Source: Nodosilinea sp. E11 (GTDB taxonomy: Bacteria; Cyanobacteriota; Cyanobacteriia; Phormidesmidales; Phormidesmidaceae). Taken from it: a stretch of DNA of 64,000 bases. The notes beneath the pieces were generated by a model. That model was not told the DNA's origin and made no database searches. It saw only the letters and a program-made list of their open reading frames with translations. Numbering within the stretch: the stretch's first letter is position 1; each line of letters opens with the position of its first letter. The translations under genes and the position numbers were made by a program. Below, one piece after another: positions 11,366-63,211 of this stretch. The DNA is taken from positions 2,722,001 to 2,786,000 of the forward strand of contig NZ_CP136520.1 of assembly GCF_032813545.1 (NCBI RefSeq), read 5' to 3'.

Positions 11366-12645
11366 CCCTTCGCTAGTCGCAGGCCGCTAAATTGCCAGCG
11401 GGCGCTGGGCGGAAAGAAATTGCGATAACTAGGACGAATATGGCCCGGTGGCGTGACGCAGGAACCGCCTCGCAGCACCATTTGGTTGCACATAAACTTG
11501 CCGTTGTATTCTCCCACGGCACCGGGGGCGGGGCGAAAGCGAGGATAGGGAAGGTAGGCGCTCTGGGTCCATTCCCAGGTGTCGCCGTAGAGCTGTTGAA
11601 GCTGACGGTTGCCGCTAGCAGGCTGAGGATGCAGATGATCGGTGGTGAGCAGGTTGCCTTCCACCGGCAGGCGAGCAGTGGCCACTTCCCACTCGGCTTC
11701 GGTGGGTAGACGGCAGCCCCGCCACTGGGCATAGGCATCGGCCTCAAAGTAGCTGAGGTGAGCTACAGGCTCTAGCAGATTGACCGGCTGCAAACCGCCC
11801 AGGGTAAACATCCACCACTGGCCGTCGCGCTGCTCCCAGTAGAGCGGGGCCTGCCAGCCTTCACTCTGCACCATGGCCCAGCCCTCAGCCAGCCAGTGAG
11901 CAGCGGTTTGATAGCCCTTGTCAGCCATAAACTCTAGATAGTCGCCATTAGTGACTAGGCGGTTGGCCAAAGCAAAGTCTTGCAAATACACCGGGTGAGC
12001 CGGGCCTTCGTTATCAAAGGCAAAGTCAGTGGTTTGGTGACCGATTGTATAGAGACCACCGGCAAAGCCCACAAACTCCAGCGGTGTAGGGCAAGCGCAT
12101 TTGACCACGGCGACGTCTTGGCGATAGGCGGGGCGCAGGGGGTTAATGGCCAGGTTGTACTTTAGATCGGTGAGCAACAGTTCTTGGTGCTGCTGCTCAT
12201 GGTGCAGACCGAGGGCCGTCAACTCTGCCACGGCGGGATGGTCGGCCTGGCGGCTCAGCAGCTTGGCCATCGCTTCATCGACGTGGGCGCGGTATTGGTA
12301 GATGTCGGCTACTGTGGGCCGCGACAGTAGACCGCGTTGGGGCCGGGGATGGCGATCGCCCACCGATTCGTAGTAGGAGTTGAACAGATAGCCATAGCTG
12401 GGGTGAAACTCCAAGTAAGTCTCTAGGTATGGGCGCAGCAGAAAGGTCTCAAAGAACCAGGTAGTATGGGCCAAATGCCATTTGGGCGGGCTAACATCGG
12501 CCATGCTCTGCACGCCATAGTCTTCAATTTCTAAAGGCTGACAGAGAGCCGCACTGAGTTGGCGCACAGACCAATAACGGTTGATTAGAGCCGCATTCGC
12601 CAGATCGGCATCTGAAGCCGGGGCCGCTGCAGAAGAAAGAGTCAT
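11362..12645 (-). CDS. egtB: Ergothioneine biosynthesis sulfoxide synthase
   Basis: Iron(II)- and O2-dependent enzyme that joins hercynine to a thiol donor (cysteine or gamma-glutamylcysteine). The N-terminal DinB-like domain carries the facial triad: His60 in KWHLAHTTWF and the HX3HXE motif His149/His153/Glu155 in LHHEQQHQEL. The C-terminal half is an FGE-sulfatase-type domain (GLYTIGHQTTDFAFDNEGP, YAQWRGCRLPTEAEWE, GDTWEWTQSAYLPYPRF, VLRGGSC). The 427-residue length is normal. With egtD it supplies the core pathway; the lyase step is not encoded nearby. Confidence 0.96.
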   Translation of the reverse strand: MTLSSAAAPASDADLANAALINRYWSVRQLSAALCQPLEIEDYGVQSMADVSPPKWHLAHTTWFFETFLLRPYLETYLEFHPSYGYLFNSYYESVGDRHPRPQRGLLSRPTVADIYQYRAHVDEAMAKLLSRQADHPAVAELTALGLHHEQQHQELLLTDLKYNLAINPLRPAYRQDVAVVKCACPTPLEFVGFAGGLYTIGHQTTDFAFDNEGPAHPVYLQDFALANRLVTNGDYLEFMADKGYQTAAHWLAEGWAMVQSEGWQAPLYWEQRDGQWWMFTLGGLQPVNLLEPVAHLSYFEADAYAQWRGCRLPTEAEWEVATARLPVEGNLLTTDHLHPQPASGNRQLQQLYGDTWEWTQSAYLPYPRFRPAPGAVGEYNGKFMCNQMVLRGGSCVTPPGHIRPSYRNFFPPSARWQFSGLRLAKG

Positions 12646-13061
12646 TTTGGGGATTTTGGGGACATTAATGGCAATTGTGGCAGAAATTACTGTGGCAAGG
12701 TGATGGTTGCCTTAAGGTGACTAAGCCCTAGCTCAGCGATCTCTTACATAGCTTGATAGTTAACTTCACCCCCAACATCTATCCACAGATGAGCTTCTCG
12801 GGCGATGGGGCAGGCTAAACAGCGGGGCAGAACCCCTCCATTTGCAGTACGGTTCTACCTACCCAGCGACCCAGCCTAGACTGTTAACTTAATCACATGG
12901 GTTTCAGGAATGACCGATCACTGCGATGAAGACAATAAATATAGTGATCTAGATATAAGTAGTGAGGTTACGCCTTAGTCAGGGCACACTAACAGCATCC
13001 AGCTCAATCTGATAAACCCAGGCGATCGCACCAACACTGCCAGCCAAGCGAGGTATCCATT
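12646..13061. other. Intergenic region, divergent egtB / DUF760 gene
   Basis: About 415 bp with no supportable gene. It must contain the leftward promoter of egtB-egtD and the rightward promoter of the DUF760 gene. The part at 12930-12975 is AT-rich (for example AATAAATATAGTGATC) and could be promoter DNA. No terminator or clear operator was seen. Confidence 0.5.
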
Positions 13062-13409
13062 GTGAGCAACTCTTCCGGTAAAGCCCAAGACCTATTTAAT
13101 GGCTTCAAAAGCTCTGAGCAAGTTAACTCTCTCATGCAGTACGTTCACAGCATGAGCCCCGAGACCATTACTCAGTTGTCTAACCCCACCTCTACAGAAG
13201 TCCAGCAGATGATGGAACACAACATCATCGGCCTGCTCGGCGGCCTGCCCTCCCAGCACTTCGACGTAGAAATCACCACCAACCGAGAAAACCTAGGTCG
13301 TCTGCTGGCCTCTGCTATGATGAGCGGGTATTTTCTACGGGGTGCCGAACAGCGCATGGCCTTCGAGCACTCGCTGATGTCGGTCGACTCAGTCGCTGAC
13401 CCTGAGTAG
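13062..13409 (+). CDS. DUF760 domain protein
   Basis: A 115-residue protein starting with GTG at 13062. The sequence SEQVNSLMQYVHSMSPETIT and then VQQMMEHNIIGLLGGLP, followed by LLASAMMSGYFLRGAEQR, fits the DUF760 family of cyanobacteria and plastids. One plant relative of this family has been linked to chloroplast protein turnover, but no activity is established for the cyanobacterial form. It is predicted soluble and mostly helical. mutY starts 24 bp downstream on the same strand. Confidence 0.8.
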   Translation: MSNSSGKAQDLFNGFKSSEQVNSLMQYVHSMSPETITQLSNPTSTEVQQMMEHNIIGLLGGLPSQHFDVEITTNRENLGRLLASAMMSGYFLRGAEQRMAFEHSLMSVDSVADPE

Positions 13410-13433
13410 TCAAGCCTTCCTCATCGAGCCTGA

Positions 13434-14684
13434 GTGAGCGATCTTTCCCCCCTTTCCTCCGCTAACCTCGACCGCTGTGATACCGCACGCGATGTCGCAG
13501 GTGCTTATACAACGAGGGTTCTAAACCAGCACCCGTTTTCCCCCAATCCGGCCCAGGCGCATCAGCCCTGGCCGGATTTTCCTGTTGAGGCCCTGCGGGT
13601 AGCCCTGCTCACCTGGTATACCGCCTGGGGCCGCACCTTGCCCTGGCGCAACATTGACGACCCCTACGCCATCTGGATCTCTGAGATCATGCTCCAGCAG
13701 ACCCAGGTGAAGACGGTGCTGCCCTACTACCGGCAGTGGCTCAAGCAGTTTCCCACGGTAGAAGACCTAGCCGCCGCCGACCAACAAACTGTGCTCAAAG
13801 CTTGGGAAGGGCTGGGTTATTACGCCCGTGCTCGCAATTTGCACCAGGCTGCCCAGCAGATTGTGGCCGACTACCAGGGCCAAATTCCCCAAGACTTTGA
13901 GGCCATCACGATGCTGCGGGGCATTGGCAAAACCACGGCGGGGGGCATTCTTAGCTCGGCCTTTAACCTGCCCCACGCCATTCTTGATGGCAATGTCAAG
14001 CGGGTGCTGGCTCGGCTGGTAGCGCTACCGGTGCCTCCTGCCAAGGCGCTGAACGACCTCTGGCAACTCTCAGAACAGTTGCTCGACCCTCGGCACCCCC
14101 GCGACTTTAACCAGGCGCTGATGGATTTAGGCGCGACCCTATGTACAAGGCGCAATCCTCAGTGCGATCGCTGCCCTTGGCAGACCCACTGCCAAGCCTA
14201 TAATCGCAATATTCAATCGGAGTTGCCCATGTCAGACACCAAAGGCCCCTTGCCCCACAAGCAGATCGGCGTCGCCGTGATCTGGAACGAGCAAGACCAG
14301 ATTTTGATCGATCGCCGCAAGCAAGAAGGACTGTTGGGCGGCCTGTGGGAGTTCCCTGGCGGCAAACTTGAGCCGGGCGAAACGATCGAAGCCTGTATCG
14401 CACGGGAAATTCAAGAAGAACTGGGGATGGAAATTGCGGTAGGCGATCGCCTCTGCACCGTCACCCACGCCTATTCGCACTTTAAGGTCACTCTCAACGT
14501 GCACCACTGCACCCACCTAAGCGGCGATCCCCAAGCGATCGAATGCGACGAGGTGCGCTGGGTCACCCTCGACACCATCGAAGAATTTCCTTTCCCCAAA
14601 GCAAATATTCACATCATCAATGCCCTACGTGCCTATGCGGCGGGGAAAACACCGGTAGATGTGGTTGAAAGTATTGCTGAATAA
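13434..14684 (+). CDS. mutY: A/G-specific adenine glycosylase fused to a complete MutT-type Nudix domain
   Basis: Base-excision repair enzyme that removes adenine mispaired with 8-oxoguanine. Start is GTG at 13434, 416 residues. Catalytic Glu84 (EIMLQQTQV), helix-hairpin-helix LRGIGKTTAGG with Asp185 (ILDGNVKR), and a 4Fe-4S cluster Cys237/244/247/253 with Cx6CxxCx5C spacing. The C-terminal domain (about 275-400) keeps an intact Nudix box, Gly310-x5-Glu316-x7-Arg324-Glu325-x2-Glu328-Glu329-x-Gly331. In well-studied MutY proteins this domain recognises 8-oxoG but has lost the catalytic box. This protein may therefore also hydrolyse 8-oxo-dGTP. The first 45 residues are an extra N-terminal extension. 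Confidence 0.93.
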   Translation: MSDLSPLSSANLDRCDTARDVAGAYTTRVLNQHPFSPNPAQAHQPWPDFPVEALRVALLTWYTAWGRTLPWRNIDDPYAIWISEIMLQQTQVKTVLPYYRQWLKQFPTVEDLAAADQQTVLKAWEGLGYYARARNLHQAAQQIVADYQGQIPQDFEAITMLRGIGKTTAGGILSSAFNLPHAILDGNVKRVLARLVALPVPPAKALNDLWQLSEQLLDPRHPRDFNQALMDLGATLCTRRNPQCDRCPWQTHCQAYNRNIQSELPMSDTKGPLPHKQIGVAVIWNEQDQILIDRRKQEGLLGGLWEFPGGKLEPGETIEACIAREIQEELGMEIAVGDRLCTVTHAYSHFKVTLNVHHCTHLSGDPQAIECDEVRWVTLDTIEEFPFPKANIHIINALRAYAAGKTPVDVVESIAE

Positions 14685-47454: not shown

Positions 47455-49077
47455 TTGGTGCAACAGTTTCTACCCCTCAGTCAATTGCTCAACGAGCACC
47501 AAACCTCCTTTGGCCCCAGGTCAGAGGAGGCTCCCCGTGGGCGGGGGGCAGCGCTGGGTTTTCCCGGTGGCAGCTCCAGCGTTTTTCATAGACAGGCTGA
47601 GCAAGAATGGCTGAGTGGGCTGGCGGCCCTGATTCGGCTACTGATAGAACTTCCCCCTGATGTTCCCCCCCCGGGCGCTTCAACGGCTGCTCAAGCCAGT
47701 GAGCTACTGCCCCTGATGGGAGGAGTCTTGTCAGGGCCATTTCCAGTATTGCCCGATCGCCTCCTAGGGCAGCGGCTCTCCCACTGGCTGCTGGTGCCTG
47801 AGCAGTTAGAGCAGATTCTCTCCGTCACTCGGCCCCTCTTGCCTGGCCAAGGCAGAGGGTCGACAGCAGCCCCAGCCTGTGATTTACAGATGGTGCCCTT
47901 AGCGAGCCACGACCCCGTTGGAGAAGAGCGGTTTTGTCTACTGCTAACCCGCAACTTTAGCCTTTTGCTGGTGTTGGGGCAGGGGGCCAATGGGTTGCCC
48001 CAGTTTCAGTTTTCCTTTGATCCAGCGGTGGTAGAGCAAGGTTGGCAGCAGTTGCGCGATCGCGTTGTCGCCATTCGTCCCCCGCTGGTGCCAGCCCTAG
48101 ATCGCCTGATCGACCAGTTTCCACCTGTCACGCCCGACTACCGCCTCGTAACTCGCTACAGCCACCTGCTCATGACCCAACTGCGTCAGCAGGTGCAAGT
48201 CGATGTCGCTGCAGAATCTCACAGTTCTGCTGGGGCGCTGGCGTCTTTAGCACTCCCGGCCCGGCCTACTCTCGCAGCATTTCAGACCGACCCCAGTCCT
48301 CACGTTGGTGGTGCTCACTACACGGCTCCGCCCAAGCCAGACCCGAGGCCACCCTGCCAAGACAGCCCCGACACCGAGCTGTTAAAGGCTATGGCCCACG
48401 AAATTCGCACGCCCCTAACCACCATTCGCACCCTGACGCGATCGCTGCTCAAGCGCAAAGACGTTGGCGACGAGGTCGCTAAGCGATTGCGGTTGATCGA
48501 TCGCGAATGCACCCAACAGATCGATCGCTTTAGCCTCATCTTTCGCGCCGTAGAGCTAGAGACCGATCGCGCCCCCAGACCGCGATCGCCCCTGTCGGCC
48601 ATTTCTCTCAACCAACTCTTCGACGACGCCATTCCCCACTGGCAGCAGCAAGCAAGCCGCCGCAACCTTAGCCTGACGGTCAATGTGCCCCCCTGCCTAC
48701 CCATGGTCAACAGCGACCCGGCCATGCTCACCCAGGTGCTCACCGGGTTAATCGACCGCTTCACCCACAGCCTGCCCCCCTACAGCCACATTGAACTGGC
48801 TGTCACCCTGGCAGGGCACCAGCTCAAGCTCCAGTTTCAGTCGCAGCCCCCGGAGGGCAGTGCCGAGTCTAAGCCCGAACACGATCCCTTCTCGTCGCCC
48901 TTTAAGGCCCTGGGGCAACTGTTGATGTTTCAACCCGAAACCGGCGGCCTGAGCCTCAACCTCAACGCTACCAAAAACCTATTTCAGGCGTTGGGCGGCA
49001 AGCTGATCGTGCGGCAGCGGCCCCAGGCAGGCGAAGTGCTGACGGTATTTTTGCCGATGGAAACCAAGACGTTGTAA
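47455..49077 (+). CDS. Histidine-kinase-like protein with His box but degenerate ATP-binding domain
   Basis: A 540-residue soluble protein beginning at TTG 47455 or GTG 47458. Residues 1-250 form an unassigned sensor region (for example FCLLLTRNFSLLLVLGQG, then QFSFDPAVVEQGWQQLRDRV). HisKA is intact: KAMAHEIRTPLTTIRTL with His315-Glu316. The C-terminal domain keeps ATPase-like flanks (DPAMLTQVLTGLID; FQALGGKLIV; VLTVFLP) but the N-box Asn residues are Gly431 and Arg435, the DxGxG box is replaced around 459-468, and the G2 box reads GGLSLNL. It can probably be phosphorylated but is unlikely to bind ATP itself. Confidence 0.85.
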   Translation: MVQQFLPLSQLLNEHQTSFGPRSEEAPRGRGAALGFPGGSSSVFHRQAEQEWLSGLAALIRLLIELPPDVPPPGASTAAQASELLPLMGGVLSGPFPVLPDRLLGQRLSHWLLVPEQLEQILSVTRPLLPGQGRGSTAAPACDLQMVPLASHDPVGEERFCLLLTRNFSLLLVLGQGANGLPQFQFSFDPAVVEQGWQQLRDRVVAIRPPLVPALDRLIDQFPPVTPDYRLVTRYSHLLMTQLRQQVQVDVAAESHSSAGALASLALPARPTLAAFQTDPSPHVGGAHYTAPPKPDPRPPCQDSPDTELLKAMAHEIRTPLTTIRTLTRSLLKRKDVGDEVAKRLRLIDRECTQQIDRFSLIFRAVELETDRAPRPRSPLSAISLNQLFDDAIPHWQQQASRRNLSLTVNVPPCLPMVNSDPAMLTQVLTGLIDRFTHSLPPYSHIELAVTLAGHQLKLQFQSQPPEGSAESKPEHDPFSSPFKALGQLLMFQPETGGLSLNLNATKNLFQALGGKLIVRQRPQAGEVLTVFLPMETKTL

Positions 49078-49686
49078 TCTCGTCCCCCTTGTACCCAATT
49101 TTGCTTGGGTACTCCGATGTAAGCAACTTTTGGAAAACTTTCTCCCTAATGGTGGGCAGTGCCCGCCCTACGGTGGCTACAGTCGCCGAAGACAGTGGAG
49201 AGATTCTTTTCCAAAAATCTCCTTATATCAGGTCCGCTTAAATGCTCCTAATCTGTCATTCCCACTTCCGAGGGAATCCATTGTGGATAAGTGACTCCAG
49301 GATAAATTCCCGCCTCTGCAGGAATGATAGGCAAGCCGTTTTCTGTTGGTTAATTAATTGGACTTCATATTAGCAGGGCGAAGGCAATAGATCCTTTGGC
49401 GCGGCTACGCCTATGCCCTTACAGGCAAGCTTTTTGGGAATTGGGATTATATGATTCAGACTTGGCATTAGACTTTAGAACTCTGAGCACTATACCTAAA
49501 GACATAAATTTTTAGTGCTTAACATTATCTATACAAAAATGTCATATCTTTGTCAGAGGAGTTTCCTCAAGTCACTGTCAAAGTGCTGCTTAGCACTCCA
49601 GGCTTAGGCTGCACGCTTAGAAAGCGAGGCTTAGCCTCGCTGGCACCGGCAAACGATGATCCAAACCCAATCAAGGAGATATCTCC
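49078..49686. other. Intergenic region with hairpins and short palindromes
   Basis: About 600 bp with no supportable gene. Just after the kinase stop, GTACCCAA/TTGGGTAC (49091-49112) forms an 8-bp hairpin without a T-run. GGGCAGTGCCC around 49154 is another small palindrome. Near 49600-49645, GCTTAG and CTTAGCCTCG words repeat in both orientations. The promoter of the small lipoprotein should be in the right part. Confidence 0.45.
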
Positions 49687-49869
49687 ATGACGTTTAAACA
49701 GTTGCTTGCGCTACCTTTAATTGTAGGTTTATCTATAGTTGGGGTTGCCTGCGGTGGCCCAGAACCTACCGCCCCTGATCCTGGCGAACCCGCACCCGGT
49801 GGGGTTCCTGTTGAGCCCACCGATCCTGCTGATCCGGCAGCACCTGGGACCCCTGGAGGTACGCCTTAG
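49687..49869 (+). CDS. Small proline-rich lipoprotein, unknown function
   Basis: A 60-residue protein. AAGGAG seven bases before the ATG is a strong ribosome binding site. Residues 1-22 are a signal peptide (FKQLLALPLIVGLSIVGVAC) ending at a Cys that fits a lipobox loosely. The mature part is almost only Pro, Gly, Asp, Glu, Ala and Thr (APDPGEPAPGGVPVEPTDPA), so it is disordered and acidic. A strong terminator follows 26 bp after the stop, marking an independent, probably well expressed short transcript. Confidence 0.75.
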   Translation: MTFKQLLALPLIVGLSIVGVACGGPEPTAPDPGEPAPGGVPVEPTDPADPAAPGTPGGTP

Positions 49870-49894
49870 GGCGACGGTTTAGCTATTTTTGCGG

Positions 49895-49939
49895 TTGGGT
49901 GTGTTGCTGTATTGCATTACAACGACACACCCAATTTTT
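49895..49939 (+). terminator. Rho-independent terminator after the small lipoprotein
   Basis: TTGGGTGTGTTG (49895-49906) pairs with CGACACACCCAA (49923-49934), 12 bp including one G-T pair, followed directly by TTTTT (49935-49939). Confidence 0.9.
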
Positions 49940-50291
49940 GTTAGTTGGATTGACTGCCATAGTTCCAACCTAGATGGGGTAAAACTTGGCATTGGCTAGC
50001 CGATCGGGCTCCAATTGAGTTTTGCGATCGCTGCACGCAGAAAATATCAAATTGATCGACAGCTATACTGCCATTGCGGTGAAAAACCGCTTTAGCTCCG
50101 TTCCACAAAGACTTGGCCATCAGGTCTAGAGAGGTAGGTTAATTCAACTGTAGGATGGGTTAGCGCAACCCAAGAGGCGTTGTTTTACTGCCTTCGGCAA
50201 AGTTTTGCCAACAGGCCTTAACCCAATCTATATCTACCCCAGCGTCTACCGAGCCGCTGTGCCGTGACTGTCTTTCCTGTGACTGAACTCT
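49940..50291. other. Intergenic region upstream of the glutaredoxin-like gene
   Basis: About 350 bp with no supportable gene. A short A/T-rich stretch near 50040-50070 could be promoter DNA for the glutaredoxin-like gene. No hairpin of note. Confidence 0.4.
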
Positions 50292-50579
50292 ATGACAAAA
50301 TTCGTGCTCTATAGCAAGCCCGGCTGCCACCTGTGCGAAGGGCTCGAAGAAAAACTGACCGCCGCCAACCACCTGCCCTTCAAGCTAGAAGTGCGCGACA
50401 TCACCACCCGCGACGACTGGTTTCAGCGCTACCAGTACGAGATTCCAGTACTGTGTCAGGTGATCCAGGCAGAGTCGGGCAGCCAAGAAATTCCTCTGCC
50501 GCGCCTATCGCCTCGGGCACCCCAGGCCAAGGTGGAGCAATTGATACAGACTTATCTGGGCCAGAGTAAGGCAGAATAG
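50292..50579 (+). CDS. Glutaredoxin-like protein (DUF836 type)
   Basis: A 95-residue thioredoxin-fold protein: MTKFVLYSKPGCHLCEGLEE holds the CxxC site (Cys12, Cys15), followed by VRDITTRDDWFQRYQYEIPV, where the cis-Pro segment YEIPVL is conserved. The family matches glutaredoxin-like DUF836/YruB proteins that reduce or bind thiols in the cytosol. It lies 31 bp upstream of murE on the same strand, but no functional link is known. Confidence 0.88.
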   Translation: MTKFVLYSKPGCHLCEGLEEKLTAANHLPFKLEVRDITTRDDWFQRYQYEIPVLCQVIQAESGSQEIPLPRLSPRAPQAKVEQLIQTYLGQSKAE

Positions 50580-50610
50580 GGCAACTTCAATGATGTGAGG
50601 AGTTGCTGAC

Positions 50611-52119
50611 ATGAAGCTGCGCCAACTGCTTGAGGACCTGCCCGCCGGGCTGATCGACGCTGGATTTTCGCTATCGGAGGGGATGGGCGACCCTGACATC
50701 AAAGGCATTTGCACCAATTCTCACGCCTGCCAGCCTGGGGATGTATTCATTGGTATGCCAGGTACCCGCGTCGATGGCGGTGAGTTTTGGCCTAGCGCGA
50801 TCGACTCTGGGGCGGCAGCGGCTCTGGTATCGGCTCAGGCGCTCCAGGTACGACCGGTCGAGGGCGATGCCTGTGTGGTACCCATGACCGATATGTCGGT
50901 GGCCTGTGCCGAAGTGGCAGCCAAGTTCTACAACTATCCAGCCCGGCAGATGGGCTTAATCGGGGTGACAGGTACCAATGGCAAGACCACCACAACGCAT
51001 TTGGTAGAGCACTTGCTGAATGCATCAGAGCAGCCCACAGCCCTGTTAGGCACGCTCTACACTCGCTGGCCAGGGTACCAAAAGACAGCGCTTTACACTA
51101 CGCCTTTTGCGGTCGAACTCCAGGCCGAACTGGCCACCGCGCGGGATGCAGGCTGTCGCTACGCGGTGCTGGAAGTCAGCTCCCACGCCCTGGCCCAAAA
51201 GCGGGTGTGGGGCTGCCCCTTTGAGGTGGCGGTGTTCACCAACCTGACCCAGGACCACCTCGACTACCACCGCGACATGGAGGACTACTTCCAGGCCAAG
51301 GCGCTGCTGTTTAACGAGACCTATCTGGCTGGTCGCGCGGTGGTGAATATCGATACGCCCTACGGCGATCGCCTCGTTGCCCAACTGGCGAGCGATCGCG
51401 TCTGGACCTACAGCACCCAAAACTCTGGAGCCGACCTGTATACGGGCGATCTGACCTACCAGGCCAATGGCGTGACGGGAACGCTGACAACCCCTCTAGG
51501 CACGGTGCCCTTTAGCTCGCCGCTGGTGGGGCAGTTTAACCTAGAGAATTTGCTGGCGGCGGTGGGGGCAGCCCTGCACCTGGGCGTTTCCCTAGACACG
51601 ATCGCAGCTGCCCTACCGGGCTTTGGCGGCGTGCCGGGACGCATGGAGCAGGTGAAGGTGGCCGAGGCCCAAGACATCAGCGTGATCGTGGACTACGCCC
51701 ACACACCCGATAGTTTGAAAAATTCATTGCAGGCGGCGCGGCCCTTTGTGCCGGGGCGGCTGATCTGCGTATTTGGCTGCGGCGGCGATCGCGATCGCAC
51801 CAAACGCCCCCAGATGGGTCGCATTGCCTACGAATTAGCTGATGCCGTGGTGGTCACCTCCGACAACCCCCGCACCGAAGACCCCGAGCAGATCCTGCGC
51901 GATGTCGTGGCGGGCATTCCAGCCGAGCTAGGGGCAGACCAGGTGGTGGGCGATCGCGCTACCGCTATCCAGGCTGCGATCGAGATGGCCCAGCCGGGCG
52001 ACGGCATTTTGATTGCAGGCAAGGGCCACGAAGATTACCAGATTCTCGGTACCGAAAAGATCCACTTTGACGATCGCGAGCAGGCTCGCTGTTTCCTTAA
52101 AAAACGGTATATTAGCTAA
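50611..52119 (+). CDS. murE: UDP-N-acetylmuramoyl-tripeptide synthetase, meso-DAP adding
   Basis: A 502-residue cytosolic Mur ligase that adds meso-diaminopimelate to UDP-MurNAc-L-Ala-D-Glu. P-loop GVTGTNGKTTTTHLVEHLL, central LEVSSHALAQKRV and FTNLTQDHLDYHRDMEDYF, and the specificity motif DNPRTEDP in the C-terminal domain, which marks DAP (not Lys) enzymes. The N-terminal domain (CTNSHACQPGDVFIGMPGTR) is complete. Length and start (ATG 50611) are normal. In this window it sits between two kinase genes. Confidence 0.97.
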   Translation: MKLRQLLEDLPAGLIDAGFSLSEGMGDPDIKGICTNSHACQPGDVFIGMPGTRVDGGEFWPSAIDSGAAAALVSAQALQVRPVEGDACVVPMTDMSVACAEVAAKFYNYPARQMGLIGVTGTNGKTTTTHLVEHLLNASEQPTALLGTLYTRWPGYQKTALYTTPFAVELQAELATARDAGCRYAVLEVSSHALAQKRVWGCPFEVAVFTNLTQDHLDYHRDMEDYFQAKALLFNETYLAGRAVVNIDTPYGDRLVAQLASDRVWTYSTQNSGADLYTGDLTYQANGVTGTLTTPLGTVPFSSPLVGQFNLENLLAAVGAALHLGVSLDTIAAALPGFGGVPGRMEQVKVAEAQDISVIVDYAHTPDSLKNSLQAARPFVPGRLICVFGCGGDRDRTKRPQMGRIAYELADAVVVTSDNPRTEDPEQILRDVVAGIPAELGADQVVGDRATAIQAAIEMAQPGDGILIAGKGHEDYQILGTEKIHFDDREQARCFLKKRYIS

Positions 52120-52277
52120 CATTTTTGCCCAAAAATGACGGTGGTATGTGAATACACGCAACATTCTTTCCGTCATTTTGGGTGGTTAAAGATACCCTAA
52201 TAGGTGCTAGCACCGATTTCCATAGCCGATCGTTATGGCCGCCTGGTTCTAGCCTGGCCCCGGCCCGTTGGAGCACT

Positions 52278-53777
52278 ATGCAGTCTTATCAAGAGCTATC
52301 TTTACACCGGCTACTTCAGCATAGTGCAGCGGTGCCTGACTACGTACAGGTCAAACCCAAAGGGTTTAAGGCCATTCTGCAATCGACGGTAGACTTTCTC
52401 GAAGCCCAAGATATTCAGGCGCACCTGCTGGTCAAGCTGCCGGGGGGCACCGCCTGGAATGATGATATTCAGCGCTACGGACAGGGGCTGGTGCCCCCCT
52501 ACCGAGTGTGGCGATTTCTGCGGCTGGCTCCCCATCAGCCCCTGCCCGCAGCGACCGATCATGAGGTTTTGCTAGCTCTACGAGAGGGACATACTTGGCG
52601 CGGCGACTATTTCATTGTGGTTCAGTCTGAGGTGTTTGCGGCCATGGTGGTGGCCCACCGCATGCAGCCGCTGTCCGCGACCCCGCCGAGTGAGGGGCAA
52701 AGACTGCCCACTGAGACCGATGAGGACGACGATGGATCTTCCCCAGGGGAAGATGCTAGCGCTCGGTCGTCATACCTGTCGGTGTGCTGTTCGGTCAATC
52801 CTGAATTAATTGCCACGGTGGTCGAGGCCATTCGCTACCCCATCGACCAGGAGATAGCCGCAGGTGATTTAGATGCAGAGGTGGCGGCGCTTGCCCAAGC
52901 TTGGCCTCAGCCCGGCCCCAGTACCGCTCCAACCTCAGTGTCCTTAGCCCTGATCGATCGCTGGCTCAACTGGCAGCTCAAGCGCCAAGAGCATTTGCGC
53001 CAGTCGGCTTCTACCTACCGCCGCCAGGCCCTGAGCATGTCGACGCTGTCGTCCCAAAACGAAGTGCTGCTCAACACTTTGCGGCTCAAAGACAACTTTT
53101 TCAACACCGTAGGTCAAGAGCTACGCACCCCCCTAACGACCATTAAGACCGCCCTCACCCTGCTCGACTCGCCCCATATCAAGCCCCCCCAGCGACAGCG
53201 CTATATGGAGATGATCAGCCATGAGTGCGATCGCCAAAGTGCTCTGATCAGCGGTGTGCTCAACCTACTCCAGGTCGAAACTAGCCTCAGCCAAACCGAG
53301 CTAGACCCGCTCAATCTGGCAGAAGCCGTACCCCCGGTGGTGAGCACTTACCAACCCTTAGCCGCCGAAAAGGGCATTATGCTGGCCTACACAATTCCCA
53401 AAAAGATGCCTGCGGTAAGTTGCCCCGACAGCTGGCTGCGGCAAATCATGATGCACCTGCTCAACAACAGCCTGAAATATACCCCCAGCGGCGGCCAAGT
53501 GTGGGTGACAGCTCGTAGCACCCCCAACTTCGCTGAGATCGAAGTACGCGATACCGGTATTGGCCTATCTTCAGGCGATCTTCCTCGCATCTTCGATCAC
53601 TTTTATCGCGGTCGCAACCTGCCCCCCGACGAAACCGAGGGAGCTGGGCTAGGGCTGTCGATTGTGCAGCAGCTACTGCTGTACTGTGGCGGCACCGTAG
53701 TGGCCCACAGCCAGCCCGACCTAGGGACGACGATGGTGGTGCGGTTACCCCTCTACCACAGCAGCCCCGACCGTTAG
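52278..53777 (+). CDS. Histidine-kinase-like protein lacking the phospho-accepting His (Gln instead), intact ATPase
   Basis: About 499 residues from the ATG at 52278; a longer frame from 52182 lacks family character. The N-terminal 240 residues are an unassigned sensor region (AHLLVKLPGGTAWNDDIQRY; YFIVVQSEVFAAMVVAHRMQ) with an acidic insert around 143-162. HisKA reads NFFNTVGQELRTPLTTIKTA, with Gln280 (codon CAA) where His is expected. The ATPase domain is complete: N-box HLLNNSLKYTP, DTGIG (425-429), FDHFYRG and EGAGLGLSIV. It cannot autophosphorylate in the usual way but could phosphorylate a partner or act as a phosphatase or scaffold. Confidence 0.88.
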   Translation: MQSYQELSLHRLLQHSAAVPDYVQVKPKGFKAILQSTVDFLEAQDIQAHLLVKLPGGTAWNDDIQRYGQGLVPPYRVWRFLRLAPHQPLPAATDHEVLLALREGHTWRGDYFIVVQSEVFAAMVVAHRMQPLSATPPSEGQRLPTETDEDDDGSSPGEDASARSSYLSVCCSVNPELIATVVEAIRYPIDQEIAAGDLDAEVAALAQAWPQPGPSTAPTSVSLALIDRWLNWQLKRQEHLRQSASTYRRQALSMSTLSSQNEVLLNTLRLKDNFFNTVGQELRTPLTTIKTALTLLDSPHIKPPQRQRYMEMISHECDRQSALISGVLNLLQVETSLSQTELDPLNLAEAVPPVVSTYQPLAAEKGIMLAYTIPKKMPAVSCPDSWLRQIMMHLLNNSLKYTPSGGQVWVTARSTPNFAEIEVRDTGIGLSSGDLPRIFDHFYRGRNLPPDETEGAGLGLSIVQQLLLYCGGTVVAHSQPDLGTTMVVRLPLYHSSPDR

Positions 53778-61429: not shown

Positions 61430-62089
61430 AAACGGGCTAAAGCCCTTTGCCCACCTAGGCTATTGGTCTACTATCTACAGCTTAAGGAATGAGCAACGGG
61501 GTGCATCACAGGGAAAAAGCACACTTGAAACCTTCCCTAAGGCGATCAAGCTATTGTCCGCTGATAGGTGCGAGTACAGTCACTATAGCAATTGATGTTT
61601 GTCGACTCTTTATTTTCCTCAATTGGGATGTATTTACAGGTCAACCCTAGGATAGATTTTTACTGGCTGACCAGCCTTAGTGCTCCTCCCCAGCGTGTCA
61701 AAGACCGAGCTGCGATCGCTTTTTCCCCTAAGTCAAGCCCTACTTTAGCTCAGCAATGCGATCGCGGCCCTAAGGCAACCGCCAAACTCCGCCTGCCAAA
61801 CCCCACCCAACTGTCGGTGACTAGGAGCCTTGTGCTGAGCTTGACAGGGTCTATTAGCTCAGAAGCAAGCAATACCGCCAACTAAAAACATTTTTAGTTG
61901 GCGGTAGTTTTATAGAAAGCACACCTTGCTTATTTTGGAAGCAACGCAATGTATTGCTCCATACTTCTAGTGCAGCCAATGTCATAAACGGCTAAATTGT
62001 CGCCAATGCTTTCTATCATATGGATGATGATTTCCCTCTGATTAGGCTGCTATAAATGTCTCAATATTGTTTGATTACAAGCCTTTCCA
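61430..62089. other. Intergenic region with candidate short transcript
   Basis: About 660 bp between divergent kinase genes. The ORF 61592-61885 (97 residues) has no recognised domain and weak coding character, but its stop codon falls inside a strong terminator hairpin. The stretch 61575-61912 could therefore encode a small RNA or a small protein. An AT-rich block at 61920-62080 may carry the promoter of the RsbRD_N-type kinase. Confidence 0.5.
61873..61912 (+). terminator. Strong rho-independent terminator in the inter-kinase gap
   Basis: TACCGCCAACTAAAAA (61873-61888) and TTTTTAGTTGGCGGTA (61891-61906) are perfect complements of 16 bases, followed by GTTTTAT. The inner A/T pairs probably open into the loop. 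No accepted gene ends here, so it terminates an unannotated transcript. Confidence 0.8.
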
Positions 62090-63211
62090 ATGCTAGTCTC
62101 CCACTCCTCAGACAACCAAGCTAAGCTAAGCCAAACCTCTGAGGAACTGAGAAGAAATTCTAAAAAAATTATGGAATTATGGGAGAAGCGTGCCCGTGAT
62201 GAGGTAAGTGCGTCTATTCACCAGGACTCTCTGGCCTTACAAAACTCTTTACCTTTATATTTAGATCAGCTAGCTGACGAACTCTCTAACCAGTCTAAAA
62301 AAACATCTCTTCAAACTGAAGATGTCAAGTTAAAAAATACTCAAATCGGCAGAAATCATGGCCACGAGCGAGCCGGTTATGTTGACTACACTATGAGTCA
62401 GCTTATCTTGGAATATCACATCTTGCGGCAGGTAATATTTCAGATTTTAGAAAAAGAAACCCCTTTAAGTCCGCGCGCCCGCGACATTATTATTGACTCC
62501 ATTGAGCAAGCCGTTAATGATGCAGCCACTCAATTTTCAGATACGTTGAGAGACATCCAAGAGATGTTTATGGTAACTCTAACTCACGACCTTAGAGGCC
62601 CGGTTAATGTTGTAAAGATGGGCACTCAACTGATTCTCCGTCGGTTTGAGCTAGGCGACACCCACTTAGATATTACGGTGAGAATGATTAGCGCCATTGA
62701 GCGGATGGATGCCATGATTCAGAACCTGCTCGATGCCAGTCGGCTAAGAGCCGGACAGGGGTTAAAGCTAGAGTTTGAAGACTGCAAGCTGGATCAGCTG
62801 CTTCACGAGGTAATTGAAGATTTAAGCTTTACCCATGGCGATCGCTTTGTGATCGTCTCAGAGTCAAATGTGGTCAGCCGTTGCAGTCGCAAACAAATCC
62901 GCAGGGTGATTGAAAATCTAGCGGTTAATGCCATCAAGTATGGCGACTCTGATGCCCCCATTACCCTAACCCTACAAAAAACTAGCGACCATATCCAGCT
63001 CGCCATCCACAACCGAGGTAATCCCATTCCTCCAGAGACCCAGGCCATTTTATTTCAGCAGTTTCGTCGTCCCCCCTCGGCAGAGGAAAAAACCGGCTGG
63101 GGTCTAGGTTTATTTTTAGCTAAAAATATTATTGAAGCCCACAGAGGCACCATCGAAATTGACAGCTGTGAGGCTCAAGGGACAAAGTTTGTTATTAGAC
63201 TGCCTAAGTAG
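62090..63211 (+). CDS. Soluble histidine kinase with RsbRD-like N-terminal domain
   Basis: A 373-residue kinase without membrane helices. Residues 15-145 fit an RsbRD_N-type helical sensor (SKKIMELWEKRARDEVSASI, LQNSLPLYLDQLADEL). The His box reads MVTLTHDLRGPVNVVKMGTQ with His166. The N-box is VIENLAVNAIKYG; the DxGxG box has Asn instead of Asp (IHNRGNPIPPE), a variant common in this kinase subfamily; G2 is GWGLGLFLAKNI. It is likely to sense a stress cue in the cytosol. An orphan without a regulator beside it. Confidence 0.88.
   Translation: MLVSHSSDNQAKLSQTSEELRRNSKKIMELWEKRARDEVSASIHQDSLALQNSLPLYLDQLADELSNQSKKTSLQTEDVKLKNTQIGRNHGHERAGYVDYTMSQLILEYHILRQVIFQILEKETPLSPRARDIIIDSIEQAVNDAATQFSDTLRDIQEMFMVTLTHDLRGPVNVVKMGTQLILRRFELGDTHLDITVRMISAIERMDAMIQNLLDASRLRAGQGLKLEFEDCKLDQLLHEVIEDLSFTHGDRFVIVSESNVVSRCSRKQIRRVIENLAVNAIKYGDSDAPITLTLQKTSDHIQLAIHNRGNPIPPETQAILFQQFRRPPSAEEKTGWGLGLFLAKNIIEAHRGTIEIDSCEAQGTKFVIRLPK

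Follow-up and report, generated by a model that had tools for sequence, protein, structure and literature searches.

Division of a histidine kinase between two proteins has been described for CheA3 and CheA4 of Rhodobacter sphaeroides, in which the acceptor histidine and the ATPase are reported to lie on separate proteins and neither autophosphorylates alone (PMC3591291). DivL of Caulobacter is reported to be a HisKA kinase with tyrosine in place of the histidine and its other motifs intact, which senses DivK~P and whose CA domain is described as dispensable (PMC4211667), and RetS of Pseudomonas aeruginosa is described as having a degenerate HATPase and an intact HExxT motif, binding another kinase and acting as a phosphatase (PMC5992135). 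Here we describe two kinase genes on the forward strand of a 64,000-nucleotide window of the Nodosilinea sp. E11 genome (NZ_CP136520.1, positions 2,722,001 to 2,786,000; feature positions below are those of the window): kinase A (47455-49077, + strand), a putative phospho-acceptor half with a dead ATP site, and kinase B (52278-53777, + strand), a putative catalytic half lacking the acceptor histidine. We tentatively favour, beyond what the sequence facts state, the reading that they form a HisKA-type split kinase in which the ATPase of B would phosphorylate the histidine of A in a heterodimer.

Like CheA3 and CheA4, A and B appear from their sequences to divide the histidine and the ATPase between two proteins. 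Unlike that pair, with its HPt-like P1, separate P3/P4 and split by whole domains, they are of the HisKA type, retain the full layout and have lost sites within it. Split kinases are thus already known for CheA, and the A/B pair would be a HisKA-type variant with reciprocal site losses. CheA-type hallmarks (HPt/P1, P3-P5) were not found in either protein: the Pfam matches contained HisKA in 20/20 members of the A family and 24/24 of the B family, and neither HPt nor CheW domains. B resembles DivL in that its acceptor histidine is replaced and the remaining motifs are kept, and differs from it in the residue (Gln, Arg or Glu), in its DICT sensor and in having a neighbour with a reciprocal lesion. 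A resembles RetS in combining a degenerate HATPase with a retained HExxT; unlike RetS, a membrane hybrid kinase acting on GacS, it has a DICT-like region and no receiver domains. It is doubtful that a split HisKA kinase would be entirely new, given HK1 (Rv0600c), HK2 (Rv0601c) and TcrA of M. tuberculosis, reportedly a split three-protein HisKA system in which one protein supplies the ATPase and another the histidine. There, one gene is said to have been cut in two, whereas A and B are two full-length proteins with reciprocal losses. Among the titles and abstracts that the literature searches listed, none described the A/B pair. We also considered whether the pair corresponds to Hik36/Hik43 (PilL-N/PilL-C) of Synechocystis, described as a split histidine kinase with two-hybrid contact between its parts (PMC7656254), and rejected this: as far as that source describes it, Hik36/Hik43 is homologous to CheA, has HPt and CheW-type domains but no DICT or HisKA domain, and controls pili.

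Orthologs were collected from a phylum sample of 292 genomes, with a cut-off of E 1e-20 for A; 139 genomes are listed as class or closer, and 135 phylum-sample misses of A fall after the class and are unlisted. B orthologs were split off by a gap in score (at least 156 versus at most 139 bits; with a profile, at least 330 versus at most 173), and absence of B from a phylum-sample genome means that it was not among the five candidates scored there. The A sequences read came from 115 of the 137 phylum-sample genomes with A and from 22 further genomes of the window's family, and the B sequences from all 36 phylum-sample genomes with B and from 42 family genomes. Since many of these genomes are closely related, the ortholog counts do not represent independent events.

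Kinase A is a frame of 540 residues with a TTG start codon, in which the reading frame, Pfam and the ortholog alignment (A1) delineate a DICT-like N-terminus, a HisKA (DHp) region and a degenerate HATPase. The putative sensor domain (residues ~39-207; 47569-48075, +) was recognized by its profile match to the DICT region of B and lies under the Pfam cut-off; PF10069 gave only sub-threshold matches in the A family (3/20 members, best E 0.023). Residues 249-301, upstream of the DHp, are predicted by AlphaFold2 to be disordered, mostly with a predicted local distance difference test score (pLDDT) below 50, and the DHp begins at residue 305. The DHp helices (residues 305-370; 48367-48564, +; Pfam HisKA E 3e-8), placed by Pfam, the ortholog alignment and the AlphaFold2 model, carry the HExxT motif and the phospho-acceptor His315 (codon CAC, 48397-48399, +), followed by Glu316. 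The histidine is present in 136/136 ortholog frames covering the site, with the glutamate and threonine of the motif in 133/136 and 136/136. In contrast to this retained acceptor site, the pseudo-ATPase domain (residues ~381-536; 48595-49062, +) scores 14.2 bits against HATPase_c, under the 26.4-bit cut-off, and has lost the N-box, DxGxG and G2. The first N-box position is glycine in 121/137 orthologs, GxGLGL occurs in 0/138, and [DN]xGxG occurs anywhere within the last 190 residues in 3/138. The sequence-only reading had noted His315-Glu316 and the loss of the N-box asparagines and DxGxG in the single protein, and both features proved to be conserved across the orthologs. The pseudo-ATPase has residues of its own (G454, G487, T496, G497 and G514) that are retained here and invariant in 137/137 orthologs, which suggests that the domain has been repurposed. 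The AlphaFold2 model (pLDDT 75.9, predicted template modelling score (pTM) 0.47) keeps the DHp-CA fold, and its best matches in the PDB include ZraS and RetS (GacS complex, 7n0e, rank 4).

Kinase B (499 residues) combines a DICT domain, a HisKA region with glutamine at the acceptor position and an intact HATPase_c, as delineated by the reading frame, Pfam (HATPase_c E 2.3e-24, HisKA E 1.7e-10) and the ortholog alignment (A2). The DICT domain (residues 7-128; 52296-52661, +) matches PF10069 above the cut-off (43.7 bits, E 3.2e-11); in the family, 24/24 members match at E <=0.1, and P0002 does so above the cut-off. A long predicted signalling helix enters the DHp hairpin (residues 223-337; 52944-53288, +; AlphaFold2 helices 223-296 and 303-337), so that in the model (pLDDT 80.9, pTM 0.49), which keeps the DHp-CA fold, the sensor joins the DHp through helix 223-296. 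The closest PDB structures are HK853 and DivL. At the phospho-acceptor position stands Gln280 (codon CAA, 53115-53117, +), and the residue is not histidine in 77/78 orthologs, being Gln in 66, Arg in 9, Glu in 2 and His in 1 (Gln 25, Arg 9, Glu 1 and His 1 in the 36 phylum-sample genomes only). It thus drifts among Gln, Arg and Glu, with no return to histidine as a trend. The HATPase_c domain (residues 386-493; 53433-53756, +; Pfam and ortholog alignment), by contrast, has every catalytic motif: Asn397, Asp425, Phe439 and Phe442 are each conserved in 78/78 orthologs and Gly427 in 77/78, and the glycines of DxGxG and G2 in 74-77/78 (those of G2 in 76-77/78). The Gln280 and intact ATPase noted in the window hold across the orthologs. 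In two genomes of genus g117 (L221:3551-4393:- and L222:4215-4982:+), B is a bare DHp-ATPase core that has lost DICT and kept the glutamine and the ATP motifs, indicating that the catalytic core is the part retained. The B frames of five more g117 genomes are likewise short.

Judged as single HisKA kinases, both proteins are incomplete: A keeps the acceptor histidine and lacks the ATP-site motifs (N-box, DxGxG and G2), whereas B keeps the ATP motifs and lacks the acceptor (His in 1/78). By sequence, the pair has what defines a split kinase, an acceptor histidine and an ATPase on two proteins. These lesions also stand out within their own genome (6.1 Mb), in which 92 B-like places are known, 79 were read and 75 distinct full kinase cores were aligned. 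Among the 75 (79/92 places read), B alone combines loss of the histidine with an intact ATP site, and A alone combines a retained histidine with loss of the N-box, DxGxG and G2. Six cores of the genome have Asn replacing Asp in DxGxG, one of which (L412, 843-2351) also lacks the first glycine. Two odd frames lie on C7 of this genome. L389:554-2020:+ (~1030 kb) encodes a GAF-HisKA-HATPase protein in which Gln-Asp replaces His-Glu and the ATP motifs are lost, so that both sites are gone. L384:1307-2098:- (~715.3-716.1 kb) encodes 264 residues comprising a receiver and then a DHp-like hairpin, with a sub-threshold HisKA match, Glu for His and no ATPase.

In the window, A and B lie on one strand with a gap of 3.2 kb, as had been stated, although a convergent layout is usual elsewhere. 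The two genes are at most 5 kb apart in 13 of the 36 B-bearing phylum-sample genomes, on the same strand in the window's own genome and convergent in the other 12. Of 25 stretches selected for having both genes near, 20 were convergent, 12 of these with no more than 96 nucleotides between the frames. Four others had both genes on one strand with 7-16 kb separating them, and one was divergent; these five all belong to the window's genus. The same-strand 3.2-kb layout is a local rearrangement, linked pairs elsewhere being nearly always convergent. Named genomes supplied 80 A loci, a good number of them on short contigs; B was found in the flanking sequence covered at 22 (Gln at the acceptor position in 21, Glu in 1) and was convergent at 21, with convergent pairs in Nostoc, Moorena, Microcoleus, Chroococcus, Aliterella, Gloeocapsopsis and Leptolyngbyaceae. 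When the neighbours of A were clustered, the kinase cluster adjoining A was mostly B. Some contigs of the named set recur in the genome samples, and removal of identical pairs left 41 linked pairs; over these, the distances among A and among B were correlated with r 0.97, a value reached in 0/2000 permutations (a mirror-tree comparison with no control gene). The conservation of the lesions, their uniqueness among the 75 own-genome cores and the linkage in many lineages together place the pattern beyond chance.

The two proteins also appear to be related. Aligned to each other, their profiles match along 364 columns (99.8%), a stretch that takes in the second half of DICT. For the N-terminal region, the profile match was 95.8% between A and B, 77-79% between A and other DICT proteins and 91-93% between B and other DICT proteins, and in the AlphaFold2 models both N-terminal domains have the same order of helices and strands, save for one extra helix in A. 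From these matches and the shared order of elements, A probably has the DICT-HisKA-HATPase architecture in diverged form, and the suggested likeness of the N-terminal regions can be put down to DICT, which B has in recognisable and A in diverged form. Strict sisterhood of A and B was considered and is not established by the trees: the best tree joins them at support 13, and FastTree adds three own-genome kinases to the clade at 0.74. An ordinary GAF kinase (L073, found at E 1e-45 in 46/292 genomes) is the second-best DHp match to both.

The simplest account of a B ATP site under constraint without an acceptor of its own, an A acceptor without an ATP site and their position as neighbours is a heterodimer. 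A and B would have arisen from related DICT-sensor kinases. B may sense through DICT and the long signalling helix and bind ATP; from B, phosphate would pass to His315 of A, most probably within a heterodimer that the two proteins form through their DHp helices, the pairing and the direction of transfer both being inferred. A could then hand the phosphate to a response regulator encoded elsewhere, or remove it through its intact HExxT. In lineages having B, B would act as a dedicated extra kinase for A. A fuller evolutionary account is possible, and we hold it with some doubt: paralogous DICT-HisKA kinases may have become one heterodimeric split enzyme by complementary loss, ancient in cyanobacteria, with B phosphorylating the histidine of A, while A alone would be a near-universal cyanobacterial protein of signalling, with a new conserved domain surface in place of its former ATP site.

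Several observations weigh against this split-kinase reading, although every phylum-sample genome with B also has A (36/36). In the window's family, 56/57 genomes carry A (E 1e-30) and 53/57 carry B (E 1e-50). A, however, occurs in 137/139 class genomes (the exceptions, G085 and G241, both belong to family f18), and 101 of the 137 A-bearing phylum-sample genomes lack a B ortholog. The co-occurrence comparison proposed by the sequence-only reading, which had named genomes carrying one gene with the same lesion as evidence against its idea, turned out against an obligate pair: A-only genomes have that lesion, and 79/79 of those read retain the histidine. Four genomes of 1.6-1.7 Mb have A, no B and four other HATPase_c histidine kinases each, all with the histidine. 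Within B-bearing genomes, 23/36 have the two genes more than 5 kb apart, and in the window no response regulator was seen in the gap or immediately outside either gene. A single B ortholog among 78 has the histidine (L107:8159-9583:+, G167), and DivL provides a precedent for a kinase lacking the histidine, with intact motifs, that is reported to act without catalysis (PMC4211667). Retention of the histidine in A-only genomes indicates that B is not the sole, or not the original, phosphate donor of A. With most cyanobacteria carrying A alone, A must also have a B-independent role, perhaps a phosphatase or phosphotransferase function of the RetS or ChpT kind, for which RetS would be a good model. 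Of the proposed split kinase, the complementary and conserved lesions and the linkage stand, but an obligate A/B pair is not supported.

Another reading, which we consider possible while leaning away from it, is that A, though catalytically dead, serves another widespread kinase pathway as phosphatase or phosphotransferase (RetS-, ChpT- or Spo0B-like) and that B is a DivL-like pseudokinase regulating A or that pathway by binding, without phosphotransfer to A. The near-universal presence of A (137 versus 36 of 139 class genomes for B), its invariant pseudo-ATPase residues and its HExxT, the phosphatase motif of RetS, all agree with it, as do the rank of RetS among the structure matches of A, the second rank of DivL among those of B and the four histidine-bearing kinases of the tiny genomes. 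It nevertheless leaves the strict conservation of the B catalytic site and the adjacency of A and B unexplained; the essential functions of DivL are reported to be independent of its CA domain (PMC4211667). B could instead phosphorylate some other protein (another DHp or an HPt) while A draws phosphate from other kinases, their linkage reflecting a shared pathway only. The separation of the genes in most B-bearing genomes would suit this, and cyanobacterial kinases can share regulators, as reported for Rre1 with Hik2 and Hik34 (PMC9321951); we regard it as unlikely, as it makes the complementary lesions and recurrent adjacency a coincidence. Decay of two unrelated kinases lying close by chance, for which the degenerate L389, L384 and Asn-for-Asp cores of the same genome could be cited, is scarcely credible given lesions conserved in the 137 (A) and 78 (B) genomes read and linkage across lineages.

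If the split-kinase reading is true, the pair would be a natural two-gene HisKA kinase with each partner disabled alone, and a test case both for the division of labour in dimeric kinases and for complementary loss after duplication. Quite apart from B, A is kept down to genomes of 1.6 Mb with an invariant histidine and no ATP site, and the source of its phosphate is a question approachable in model cyanobacteria. By sequence, the other kinases of the tiny genomes are SasA-, NblS-, PhoR- and Hik2-like, A itself being missed by the HATPase_c search used. With A the tally is five, and Prochlorococcus MED4 is cited as having five histidine kinases. The first DHp helix of A is nearest to the Hik2-like kinase of a tiny genome (10/20 positions versus 7-8 for the others). 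Hik34 is said to modulate Hik2-dependent phosphorylation of Rre1. As a lead only, A may be Hik34 (slr1285), which has been reported with Hik2 as a conserved partner of Rre1. A review states that recombinant Hik34 autophosphorylated in vitro, which would speak against this identity given the dead ATP site of A.

Three frames, named from sequence, lie between A and B in the window: 49687-49869 resembles a small lipoprotein, 50292-50579 a glutaredoxin and 50611-52119 MurE. A further kinase frame with His-Asp and with Asn for Asp in DxGxG lies near the window end (62075-63208, +). In the neighbour clustering of 122 A loci, no recognisable response regulator was found among the cluster representatives listed. 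In a 3.0-Mb genome without B (G177), a sensor-less kinase with histidine and ATP motifs intact (L175:5791-8254:-) overlaps the downstream end of A on the same strand, and this short kinase is a possible alternative partner of A; in G127, a truncated GAF kinase adjoins A. Three genomes with the same genus code as G167 (G068, G125 and G278) have Gln at the B acceptor site. In tiny-genome loci of family f20 (L189, L150 and L173), A lies between rodA/ftsW-like and psaD-like genes, followed by a trpE-like gene (names from sequence), and in a single genome (G095, L146) a GroEL-like frame (11798-13507) lies ~3.4 kb from A.

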